DNA from: an uncultured Candidatus Thioglobus sp.
Lineage (GTDB): Bacteria; Pseudomonadota; Gammaproteobacteria; PS1; Pseudothioglobaceae
DNA length: 64,000 bases
Assembly (NCBI GenBank): GCA_905182815.1
Contig: CAJJCX010000002.1
Coordinates: forward strand, 1-64,000
Direction: 5' to 3'
Shown: positions 25,656 to 58,202 of the stretch, in pieces
How positions within the stretch are numbered: position 1 is the stretch's first letter
How the letters are laid out: each line of letters begins with the position of its first letter
Notes under the pieces: model-generated
Database searches by the model: none
Seen by the model: only the letters and a program-made list of their open reading frames with translations
Told to the model about the DNA's origin: nothing
Position numbers and translations under genes: made by a program

Positions 25656-25688
25656 AAAAAAAAGCCCCAAAAAATGGGGCTTTTTTTA
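25656..25688 (-). terminator. groEL terminator
   Basis: GCCCCA (25664-25669) and TGGGGC (25675-25680) form a GC-rich stem flanked by A and T runs of seven or more bases. It is a textbook intrinsic terminator for groESL on the minus strand, and by symmetry could act in both directions. Confidence 0.9.
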
Positions 25689-53533: not shown

Positions 53534-54755
53534 TTATCTTCCTTGGATTTCCATTTTTTTATTGACATAATTAAGCAATAAAGAAATAAACAGCGAAATT
53601 ACTAGATAAACCAACATCGCCATAGCTAAAATTTCAACTGCTTGACCAACCTGGTTTAGGACGGTGCCTCCAAATGTACTCATTAATTCTGGGTAGCCAA
53701 TTACTGTGGCTAATGAAGAGTTCTTTGTTAAATTTAGGTATTGATTAATGGTGGGTGGAATTGCCACTCTTAATGCTTGCGGCAAAACAATCAGCTTAAG
53801 AGACTGAACTGGCGATAAGCCTATTGCAGCAGCAGCCTCCTTTTGGCCTTTATCAACTGCCTCTATTCCAGATCTTATTGCTTCAGCAATATAAGTTGCA
53901 GTGTAGACGCTCAATGCAAAAGTTAATGCTAAAAATTCTGGAACAACAGCCATGCCACCTTTCAGATTAAATTTTCCTAGAACTGCATAATCAAATTGAA
54001 GTGGTGAGCCAACTAAAAAGATAAACCATTACCGGTAAGCCAACTATTAAACCAAGAGTGTACATCCAAGTACTGGTATGTGTTCCTGTAAGCTCATGTC
54101 TCTTCTTATAAAATTTTTTAATAAAATAAGCAGCAATGATTCCAATAATGAATGCTAAGGCAACAAATATAAAGCCATCTTCGGCAATTGGTTTTGGAAG
54201 GTATAAGCCTCGCTGATTAAGGAAGGCAATATCAAAAAATGCCAAGCTTTGTTTAGGGTGAGGAAAAACATTAATAAATAGGTTGTACCAAAAAAGAATT
54301 TGTAACAGAATGGGTATATTTCTAAAGAGCTCAATATAGCCCCCCGCAAGTTTTGCAATTAGATAGTTATTAGAAAGCCTTGCAATACCAATTAACAGCC
54401 CAATTAGTGTAGATAGAATTATGCCAATAAAGGCAACAACTAGGGTATTTACAAGTCCTACATAAAAAACAGTTAAATTTGAAGATTCTGGAGTGTAGTC
54501 AACTACAATATTACCAAGGAAAGGCAAGATATCAAAACCTGCCCTATTATTAAGAAAAGAAAACCCTGTTTGTATTCCTCTCGCTTCAATATTTTCAAAG
54601 AGGTTTCCTATTGCCGTATAAAAGAGTCCTACTACTAAAACAAATGTAATTACCTGGAAGAAAAAAGCTCTTGCCTCATTGTTATAAAGTAAATCACGAA
54701 AGTTTGATCCTCTGTGTTTAGATTTACCAAGGGAGTCGAGAATAAGTTTTTTCAT
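53534..54755 (-). pseudogene. aapQ: General L-amino-acid ABC transporter permease AapQ, one frameshift
   Basis: Partner permease of AapM. The first frame (from the ATG at 54755, MKKLILDSLG) has the N-terminal RAFFFQVITFVLVVGLFYTAIGN and VDYTPESSNLTVFYVGLVNTLVVAF regions and runs into a stop at 53991. Adding one base in the T-run near 54023 continues it as LVGSPLQFDYAVLGKFNLKGGMAVVPEFLALTFAL and the EAA loop YIAEAIRSGIEAVDKGQKEAAAAIGLS. The restored length is about 405 residues, as in AapQ/BztB. A homopolymer error is the simplest cause. It lies after the aapJ terminator. Confidence 0.87.
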
Positions 54756-54820
54756 ATAGAGCAATAAATATTAATTGAGAAATTTTACTAAAAAACGAGC
54801 TTTGAATTAAGAAAAAAAGT

Positions 54821-54856
54821 AAAAAAAAACCAGCCTGCTAAAGTATAGCAGGCTGG
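54821..54856 (-). terminator. Terminator between aapJ and aapQ
   Basis: CCAGCCTGCT (54830-54839) and AGCAGGCTGG (54847-54856) form a perfect 10-bp stem with a 7-nt loop. Read on the minus strand it is followed by nine T's. It should leave binding-protein mRNA in excess over the permease genes downstream. Confidence 0.9.
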
Positions 54857-54880
54857 CTTAAGTTCTATCTAGATAATTGC

Positions 54881-55889
54881 TTATCTAAATGGAGGTGAGT
54901 AAAGGATACCACCTTGTGACCATAGTGCATTAACACCACGAGCAATACCAATTGGAGTATCAACACCAATGTTGCGCTCAAAGCTTTCAGAGTAGTTACC
55001 TACTTGCTTAATGATCTGGTAAGTCCAGTCTGGAGTCAAACCAACGTACTCATGAGTGCTTCCAGAACGACCCATTAAGCGCTCGCGCTCAGGGTTATTT
55101 GAAACCATATCAACAGTAGCACTAGTAACACCAATCTCTTCAGCAGTGATCATAGCGTTAAGAGACCATCTTACGATGTTAAACCACTGATCGTCACCTT
55201 GACGAACAACAGGGCCTAAAGGCTCTTTAGAAATGATTTCTGGAAGTACAACGTGCTCAGAAGGATCGTTCGCACCAGCACGCATTGAATATAATCCAGA
55301 TGCGTCAGTTGTTAGAACGTCACAACGACCAGCAGTCATAGTTAGTTAGAGTTTGTGCATTCGTGTCTGAAACAACAGAGTTGTAATCGATACCGTTTGC
55401 TTTACCCCAGTCAGCTAAGTTTAATTCAGTAGTTGTACCTGCTTGAATACAAATCGCAGCTCCACTTAATTCCATAGCACTAGAAACACCTAGAGAAGAC
55501 TTAACCATAAAGCCTTGTCCATCATAGTAGTTAACACCAGCAAAGTTAAGACCTAGTGAAGCGTCACGAGTAATTGTCCAAGTAGTGTTTCTAGACAACA
55601 TATCGATCTCACCAGACTGAAGTGCAGTGAATCTTTCTTTAGCAGTTAGTGGTACAAATTTAACTTTAGTTGCATCGCCAAGCGTTGCAGCAGCAACAGC
55701 ACGACAAACATCAACGTCAACACCTGTCCAAGTACCTGAAGAGTCAGCTGAAGAGAATCCCGCAAGACCTTTAGATACGCCACAAGAAACGTGGCCTTTA
55801 GCTTGAACGTCGCTTAATGTAGAAGCTTGTACACCAAGTGCACCAACAACTAACAACGAAGCAGCAGTCAATTTTAGTAATTGTTTCAT
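54881..55889 (-). pseudogene. aapJ: General L-amino-acid-binding periplasmic protein AapJ, one frameshift
   Basis: Periplasmic solute-binding protein of the Aap/Bzt system. It starts at 55889 (MKQLLKLTAASLLVVGALGVQAS, a clear signal peptide) behind a strong AAGGAG; longer upstream starts would lack this. It has the family segments VDVDVCRAVAAATLGD, LTAKERFTALQSGEIDML and SRNTTWTITRDASLGL. A single extra base near 55345 breaks the frame before TAGRCDVLTTDASGLYSMRA; removing it gives about 335 residues ending GGILYSPPFR. Codon and context look normal, so this is probably a sequence error. Confidence 0.88.
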
Positions 55890-56264: not shown

Positions 56265-56300
56265 TAGTTATTTTATAACTGTAGTGGTATAAAATAACTA
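56265..56300. promoter_or_regulatory. Perfect 13-bp inverted repeat spanning the nadE promoter
   Basis: TAGTTATTTTATA (56265-56277) and TATAAAATAACTA (56288-56300) are exact inverse complements around a 10-bp centre. The right arm includes the likely -10 (TGG-TATAAA, 56288-56293) and the left arm covers the -35 position. A protein bound here would block the promoter. The HTH domain encoded by the adjacent gene is the obvious candidate. Confidence 0.6.
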
Positions 56301-56326: not shown

Positions 56327-58202
56327 GTGAATAAAAAAACAACTGAATACCTTGCTCTAGTGCGTGAGAAAACTGGTTTTTCTGATTATAAAATTGCTAA
56401 GGAGTATGATATAAATCAATCTAACCTTAGTAAATATAGCTCTGGTAAGGCCGCTCTTAGTGAGACGCACGCCTGGTTATTTGCTAATATCCTTGAATTA
56501 GATCCATCTGAAGTGGTTGCAAATACTAAGTATGAACATGCAATAAATACTGGAAATAATTTGAAGGCTATATTTTGGCAGGAACAGCTTAATAAGATAT
56601 TTTCTGAATCGGAGTCAATAAAAATCCAAATTGCTCAATTTAACCCTATTGTTGGAGATATTAAGGCTAATGCCTTAAGAATGTTAGATTTGATTAATGA
56701 GGCTCATGAAATTGGAGCGCATTTAATTGTTTTTCCAGAATTAGCAATTACTGGCTACCCTCCGGAAGATCTTTTATTTAGAGAGGGTTTTATTAATCAA
56801 GTTAACGAAGAAATTAATAGTTTATGCAATCTAGTGCCTTCAGCTATAACTATTCTATTTGGTGCGCCAAGCCAATCAAATGAGTCTCTTTTTAATAGTG
56901 CTTTTTGCATTCAAAATAATCGAGTAATTCATGTTTACAATAAGCAAGAATTACCAAACTATGGCGTTTTTGATGAAAAGCGCTACTTTGCTTCTGGTGA
57001 CGAGTCATTTATATTTGAATGTCAGCAAACTAAAGTTGGCGTTTTAATTTGTGAAGATCAATGGATTGACGGTCCAATTGATAGGCTATGTCAATCTAAT
57101 GTTGATGTAGTGGTGTCTCTTAATGCATCACCCTTTCAATTAAATAAACAAAATGAGCGTATAGATATTTGCAAACGTTATGCGCTGAAGTTTGATCTTT
57201 CATTTATCTACGTGAACATGGTTGGAGGACAAGATGAAGTTGTTTTTGATGGCAACTCTTTTGTCATAAGTAATCTTGGAGAGCTTACTCTTCAGCTACC
57301 AGCATTTAAAGAGATGTCGTTACTTCATAATAGTACTAATTATTTGCCTTCAGTTTTAAGTGAGGAGGAGTCAATATATTCTGCACTTGTTTTAGCAACG
57401 AGGGATTATATTCAAAAAAACTCCTTTGGAGGAGCTTTAATTGGCCTGTCTGGTGGTATTGATTCAGCTTTAACTCTTGCAGTTGCAGCTGACGCTATTG
57501 GTCCTGAGAATGTTCATGCAGTGATGATGCCCTACCAATTTACTTCTGATATGAGTCTTGAGGACTCTGAACTTCAGGCGCAAGCTCAGGGAGTGCAGTT
57601 CTCAAATATTGATATTCACTCGATGGTTGATTCTTTTAATTTTTCTCTTAATGATTTTTTTGAAAATACTTCTCCAGATTCGACTGAAGAAAACATTCAA
57701 TCTCGTGTTCGAGGTACGCTTCTAATGGCGCTTTCAAACAAATATCATAAAATTGTTCTTGCAACTGGCAATAAATCAGAGATGGCAGTTGGCTATGCGA
57801 CCTTATATGGCGATATGTGTGGTGGTTTTGCTCCACTTAAAGATATTCCCAAAACAATGGTATACAGGCTTTCTAGATATAGAAACACAATTTCTCCAGT
57901 TATTCCTGATCGCGTTATAACAAGGCCTCCTTCTGCTGAGCTTGGCTCCTAATCAAGTTGATCAAGATACACTGCCTTCTTATGACGTTTTAGACGATAT
58001 TTTAAAGAGATTTGTTGAATTAAAGCATTCTGTAGCTCAAATTACTGAGCAAGGGCATAGTCTTGAGGTTGTTAATAAGGTTACTTCTATGATCCTTAGA
58101 AACGAATACAAGAGGCGTCAATCTGCTCCTGGGCCTAAGATAAGTGGCAATGCATTTGGTAAAGAAAGAAGGTATCCAATGACATCAAAGTTTAAGCCTT
58201 AA
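56327..58202 (+). pseudogene. nadE: HTH-domain/glutamine-dependent NAD synthetase fusion, one frameshift near the 3' end
   Basis: Makes NAD from deamido-NAD, ATP and glutamine. Residues 1-92 form an XRE/DUF3693-like helix-turn-helix (SDYKIAKEYDINQSNLSKYSSGK, then LELDPSEVV), starting at GTG 56327. Residues about 98-360 are the nitrilase-type glutaminase with Glu138, Lys206 and Cys242 (GVLICEDQW). The synthetase domain follows with PP-loop LIGLSGGIDSALT. One extra G near 57945 breaks the frame; correcting it continues APNQVDQDTLPSYD to 58202, about 624 residues against a usual 540. The extra length is the HTH. The frameshift is probably an error; the fusion is in one uninterrupted frame. Confidence 0.88.

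Follow-up and report, generated by a model that had tools for sequence, protein, structure and literature searches.

A conserved multi-unit element, a candidate autoregulatory operator, in the promoter of the HTH-nadE fusion gene of Thioglobaceae

The window (the whole stretch of 64,000 nucleotides analysed here), which comes from a relative of Candidatus Pseudothioglobus in the Thioglobaceae, contains a nadE gene whose product carries an HTH domain at the N-terminus of a glutamine-dependent NAD synthetase, and a perfect inverted repeat lies directly in front of this gene. The question raised by the locus is whether the repeat is a site through which the enzyme controls its own synthesis. Comparison with relatives in the Thioglobaceae, a family of sulfur-oxidising marine bacteria, uncovered a set of conserved units that are restricted to HTH-nadE promoters, a gene fusion shared by all near-complete genomes of the family, and a loss of constraint on the HTH part in one lineage. 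From these sequence comparisons we consider it likely that the units make up a multi-unit operator through which HTH-NadE represses its own gene, with nadE as essentially the only target.

The inverted repeat and the units within it

The repeat, TAGTTATTTTATA-ACTGTAGTGG-TATAAAATAACTA, has two exact 13-bp arms and a 10-bp centre at 56265-56300 and stops 26 bp 5' of the GTG start (56327) of HTH-nadE, as the preliminary description had stated. If arms of at least 13 bp and a loop of at most 20 are required, the 64 kb hold just two perfect inverted repeats, the nadE repeat included, and third-order Markov copies of the window held a mean of 0.08; the chance of the nadE repeat in a shuffled copy of its intergenic region was 0.004. 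The second perfect inverted repeat of the window (25657-25687, AAAAAAAGCCCC..GGGGCTTTTTTT) resembles an ordinary terminator. The coordinates of the features of the nadE locus are collected in Table 1.

Table 1. Features of the HTH-nadE locus (positions in the 64-kb window)
Feature	Position	Strand	Remarks
Operator unit C (candidate), ATGTATTTATTAACTAA, 16.8 bits	56219..56235	-	absent from the preliminary description
Operator unit B (candidate), AGTTATAAAATAACTAT, 14.6 bits	56264..56280	-	core GTTATTTTATAAC 56267-56279
Perfect inverted repeat, 13+10+13	56265..56300	.	contains units A and B
Putative -35 position, TAGTTA (3/6 match, 17-bp spacer)	56265..56270	+	inside unit B
Operator unit A (candidate), TGGTATAAAATAACTAA, 20.0 bits	56285..56301	+	core GGTATAAAATAAC 56286-56298
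Putative extended -10, TGG-TATAAA	56285..56293	+	inside unit A
HTH-NadE reading frame, 541 aa	56327..57952	+	interrupted by one extra base near the 3' end
N-terminal XRE-type HTH domain and two C-terminal helices, residues 5-93	56339..56605	+	
Presumed recognition helix, residues 31-39, QSNLSKYSS	56417..56443	+	
Glutamine-dependent NAD synthetase part (nitrilase-type glutaminase and NAD synthase)	56612..57949	+	
C-terminal rest of NadE	57942..58202	+	other frame; single frame in relatives

A perfect inverted repeat near a start codon could function as RNA in the nadE leader, as a terminator, an attenuator or a riboswitch. We consider this very improbable. The arms are only 8% GC, intrinsic-terminator criteria (a G+C-rich stem, then a T run) revealed no terminator-like site at the repeat, in keeping with its earlier description as unlike a terminator, and no Rfam 15 match above the gathering score was found in the 64-kb window. 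Furthermore, a promoter with its putative -10 at 56288 would leave the greater part of the repeat untranscribed, and the same-orientation units found in the other clade of the family (see below) cannot form a hairpin.

Exact 13-bp arms are limited to the window and a handful of close relatives, and the conserved part of the repeat consists of two putative binding units of about 17 bp, B and A (consensus GGTA-W5-TAACTA), which are placed in inverted orientation with their centres 21 bp apart. An alignment of the upstream regions of 18 genus members gave the fuller consensus (A/T)(G/T)GTA-W5-TA(A/C)CTA(A/T), which includes the imperfect dyad GKTA-N5-TAMC. The core of unit A, GGTATAAAATAAC, is identical in 17 of the 18 members, and that of unit B, GTTATTTTATAAC, is a near-perfect 13-bp dyad. 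A third unit, C, sits 45 bp upstream of unit B; when the window was scanned with the unit matrix, units A, B and C were the only positions that scored at least 11 bits. Among the 18 genus members, mean column conservation was 0.91 in the three units versus 0.63 elsewhere upstream (p about 5e-18), and 30 of 51 columns were invariant in the units versus 13 of 256 elsewhere. Inspection by eye found no single regular helical spacing of the units (gaps of 15, 18, 21, 30, 36 and 45 bp). The preliminary description had interpreted the repeat as an autorepressor operator consisting of a single dyad with a 10-bp centre. The family-wide conservation before HTH-nadE supports a candidate operator, but the single dyad has to be replaced by two units and a third one upstream.

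Two further features were noticed around the units. An IHF-like sequence, AATCAATnnGTTA, lies upstream of the candidate operators (loci L069, L073 and L067), and upstream of unit C it is kept in most relatives and degenerate in the window. The candidate operator is duplicated in three relatives (L066, L068 and L074), giving four units with TATAAAATAACTATAGTTATTAATTACC between both copies.

The repeat had also been said to span the -35 position and an extended -10, and we located the same elements, TGG-TATAAA at 56285-56293 and TAGTTA 17 bp 5' of TATAAA. The -35 match is poor (3/6), and both promoter positions are putative. The A/T spacer is nearly invariant in unit A and variable in units B and C, which fits the assignment because TATAAA in unit A would also serve as the -10.

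Conservation of the unit and its restriction to HTH-nadE

The unit was sought in the HTH-nadE promoters of 56 named relatives, which belong to Pseudothioglobus, Thioglobus, the Ruthia/Ruthturnera clam symbionts and the Bathymodiolus symbionts. At least one unit was detected in all 56 promoters and at least two in 55 of them, when 0.012 would be expected per shuffled promoter. The full matrix came from the tested promoters themselves, and the more independent figure is therefore that of a cross-clade test, in which a matrix built from Pseudothioglobus only recognised units in 35 of the 37 promoters that came from the other clade, versus 0.016 in shuffled promoters. The layout is mostly -34(+), -55(-) and -100(-) in Pseudothioglobus, and mostly -82(+), -46(+) and -28(-) in the Thioglobus clade, where TATAAT immediately follows the -46 unit. 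Orientation and spacing of the units differ between the two clades, and the putative promoter is overlapped in every case. One unit in a varied layout with constant promoter overlap is the behaviour of protein binding sites, not of RNA hairpins.

We also considered the explanation that the units are a product of chance, that is, that an AT-rich promoter contains similar A/T boxes that are kept by RNA polymerase only. Such an explanation could draw on unit A, which probably includes the -10. It is already strongly disfavoured, and we give it hardly any weight: apart from the low probability of the repeat in shuffled sequence, units B and C are conserved as well and C lies outside any core promoter element, the most informative columns of the unit matrix are G and C, and a unit is found in every one of the 56 promoters.

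The full element was detected in 21 of 29 genus genomes; the 11 near-complete genomes among the 29 all have it, and the places listed are all at nadE. The possibility that it is a common genomic repeat, which the preliminary description had raised, was rejected, as a search for further copies found the full element once per genome and at nadE only. The genome-wide scans used patterns rather than the matrix. With the exact unit pattern, a search of whole genomes of the genus gave few matches off nadE, and those inspected were within coding sequence with one exception; four of the coding matches are one and the same polA site, and the sole non-coding match inspected was found in one species, just 5' of a purE-like frame. 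A regulon beyond nadE was rejected on the basis of these matches, which suggest that there is essentially no other promoter target across the genus. The unit was expected to be absent before plain nadE, and indeed no unit stood in front of any of the 12 plain nadE genes taken from other families, although this is a weak control, most of those genomes being GC-richer.

The HTH-NadE protein and a proposed mode of autorepression

The frame starting at 56327 contains, in this order, HTH_3, CN_hydrolase and NAD_synthase domains. HTH_3 scored 23.8 bits against a cut-off of 23 on the isolated domain, and 19.8 bits, under the cut-off, on the whole protein. Scores for NF010588 (glutamine-dependent NadE) were 722 and 734 bits versus a cut-off of 479 and were obtained from two relatives, the window copy being frameshifted. 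Residues E138, K206 and C242 and the SGGxDS loop are invariant in 25 sequences, and the closest NadE is 97% identical to the window copy. The frameshift results from an extra base near 57941 (57935-57950; GAGCTTGG versus GAGCTTG in relatives), which shifts the frame at residue ~540 and disrupts the last ~86 codons, whereas relatives have one frame of about 624-625 aa. As the remaining gene is intact, this is probably an assembly error. The adjoining amino-acid ABC transporter genes (53534-55889; permease and binding protein) seem split into two frames each, and multiple frame breaks within 5 kb suggest uncorrected indels in the assembly.

When a model of the HTH domain (pLDDT 93.8) was compared with solved structures, DNA-binding antitoxins of the HigA type ranked best (78 residues, Z 8.9), and some of the matched structures carry operator DNA. 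These XRE antitoxins are the closest solved folds; their identity to the HTH of NadE is 8-20%, none of the HigA-specific family models gave a match for HTH-NadE, and, unlike HigA, which pairs with a higB toxin, the HTH of NadE has no toxin partner and is fused to an enzyme. The full-length model was of moderate quality (pLDDT 80) and shows a compact separate HTH domain and little more. The best solved relatives of the catalytic part are 5kha and 4f4h, the latter of which we take to be B. thailandensis NadE. The B. thailandensis enzyme is grouped with dimeric type 2 NadE; on type 2 enzymes NAD+ exerts a feedback inhibition that PII relieves (PMC7196632). The type 2 glutamine-dependent enzymes are alike in the catalytic part, but neither a DNA-binding domain nor an autoregulatory operator has been described for them. 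An octamer model with DNA wrapping was dropped, given that the best solved relatives include a dimeric type 2 enzyme.

Of the 83 family genomes, 71 contain the HTH, as do all 49 that are near-complete, and in nearly every case it is part of the ~625-aa nadE frame. Outside the family it was detected in one genome among 369 class genomes, as weakly similar separate proteins of 94 aa. AGTTA..TAACT inverted half-sites are present 5' of a distant separate 94-aa HTH protein from another gammaproteobacterial family (L154:1385-1420). A phage origin of the HTH was rejected: viral contigs contained no relative, and phage records yielded no more than a CI-like repressor with a 31% match. One of the 83 family genomes encodes a separate 84-aa HTH paralogue (L155:1501-1755), which lies just 5' of a ribonucleotide-reductase-like gene. 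Within the 3.3-kb locus of this paralogue the top-scoring site is TGGTATTTTATATCTAC, with 8.8 bits against 3.7 for the runner-up, and it lies at -39 relative to the start of the paralogue itself, which suggests that the unit and this HTH subfamily form a pair.

The paralogue bears on another explanation, namely that the units are the target of some other regulator with a gene of its own, the HTH of NadE having a different role. Binding by NadE's own HTH is deduced from sequence, and the paralogue shows that a separate HTH protein exists in one genome. The explanation is nevertheless improbable, because the unit set occurs at HTH-nadE only, the paralogue is confined to 1 of 83 family genomes, and the HTH and the operator lose constraint in one and the same lineage (see below). 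Among known regulators, the NrtR winged-helix domain (PF21906) was found in 0 of 83 family genomes, and the NadR family (TIGR01526) in 0 of 83 above the cut-off.

We favour the interpretation that the HTH of NadE itself binds the units and that the effect is repression. The repeat would be the promoter-proximal half of a multi-unit operator, in which each unit (GGTA-W5-TAAC, an imperfect 13-bp dyad) would be bound by a pair of XRE-type HTH domains of a NadE dimer; a dimer carries two HTH domains, so that one dyadic unit per dimer is predicted. Units A and B lie over the putative -10 and -35, so that their occupation would exclude RNA polymerase, and unit C, together with a fourth unit in some species, may add cooperative binding. 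We infer that NAD(+) or another NadE ligand tunes this repression, and NAD+ or NaAD would be the first candidates because type 2 NadE is inhibited by NAD+ (PMC7196632).

Alternatively, the HTH of NadE could bind the units but mainly activate or fine-tune nadE, with upstream units activating and proximal units repressing. XRE proteins such as lambda CI both activate and repress, and units are present at -100 and -70 besides those over the promoter. However, the best-kept units in both clades overlap the putative -10 and -35 or the +1 region, the usual place for repression, and we regard a mainly activating or fine-tuning role as unlikely.

Constraint in reduced genomes and comparison with known NAD regulators

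Four family genomes, each a single contig of ~1.02 Mb, are presumably those of Vesicomyosocius-type clam symbionts; the genome of V. okutanii is 1.02 Mb (PMC3202245). All four keep the entire HTH-nadE frame. Their dN/dS values are 0.76-1.17 for the HTH part versus 0.07-0.11 for the NadE part, and the HTH values in sister symbiont lineages are 0.08-0.34. Thus, in the ~1.02-Mb genomes evolution of the HTH part is neutral, with dN/dS about 1, and the NadE part is constrained. All four lack an upstream element and have a disrupted -28 unit; the -84 unit is lost in one of the four, and the -46/-48 unit, which overlaps the -10, is retained in the clade. The regulator domain and the operator appear to lose constraint jointly while the enzyme is kept. 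This natural knock-out counts for less in that it concerns a single clade with generally eroding genomes, and as a single lineage it is a strong illustration rather than an independent replication.

The arrangement resembles that of NadR of Enterobacterales, an enzyme of the NAD pathway that has an HTH at its N-terminus and acts as a repressor of NAD genes (PMC12421817). NadR combines an HTH with NMN adenylyltransferase and ribosylnicotinamide kinase, and HTH-NadE is likewise an NAD enzyme with an N-terminal HTH; in contrast to NadR, which has several targets (nadB, nadA, pnuC and pncB), nadE is the only target seen for HTH-NadE. The DNA-binding domain of PutA is a ribbon-helix-helix, whereas that of HTH-NadE is an XRE-type HTH, and the enzymes are different, yet regulation of the own gene would be common to both. 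PutA binds the putA-putP spacer only and hence regulates its own gene, and together with BirA, PepA and PyrH it belongs to the trigger enzymes, which double as DNA-bound regulators (PMC8249747). The nadE promoter contains what may be a cognate operator of this trigger-enzyme type. HTH-NadE is best explained as a fusion of enzyme and repressor that has its analogues in NadR and PutA, yet is unrelated to NadR; the kind is already known, since NadR, PutA and BirA are on record as such fusions (PMC8249747).

NrtR, NadQ and NiaR are transcription factors of NAD metabolism (PMC12421817, PMC5343134) and are proteins unrelated to HTH-NadE, and the NadQ motif, ttATRCTCannntGAGYATaa (PMC5343134), is unlike the HTH-nadE unit. 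Four transcription factor types have been listed for bacterial NAD metabolism (PMC12421817). A survey of the NADS family covers synthetase-glutaminase arrangements, and the term HTH is absent from it (PMC3376133). In the literature searched, we found no description of HTH-NadE, of an XRE domain on NadE or of nadE as a sole target.

Taken together, these comparisons allow a broader reading, which is plausible but which we offer tentatively. HTH-NadE would represent one more class of bacterial NAD regulator in addition to NadR, NiaR, NrtR and NadQ, and would repress a single target. As the enzyme of the last step in NAD synthesis, it would detect its substrates or product in its active site and signal to the operator, so that nadE transcription would read the NAD state directly. 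It would have arisen once, at the base of the Thioglobaceae, when a small XRE regulator was fused to NadE, and would now be in the course of being lost in the vertically inherited clam symbionts. If this is true, a regulator type built into NAD synthetase itself is added to those of NAD metabolism, in marine SUP05/Thioglobus bacteria and in vent and seep symbionts. An exact candidate operator and a testable protein are now at hand, and a single reading frame exhibits a regulatory domain that decays while the enzyme stays, during genome reduction.

One observation speaks against the favoured interpretation: in a mussel symbiont (G421; L117 / L196) the HTH part of nadE contains a frameshift and all three operator units are intact. 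The frameshift may reflect either recent loss of the domain or an error in the assembly.
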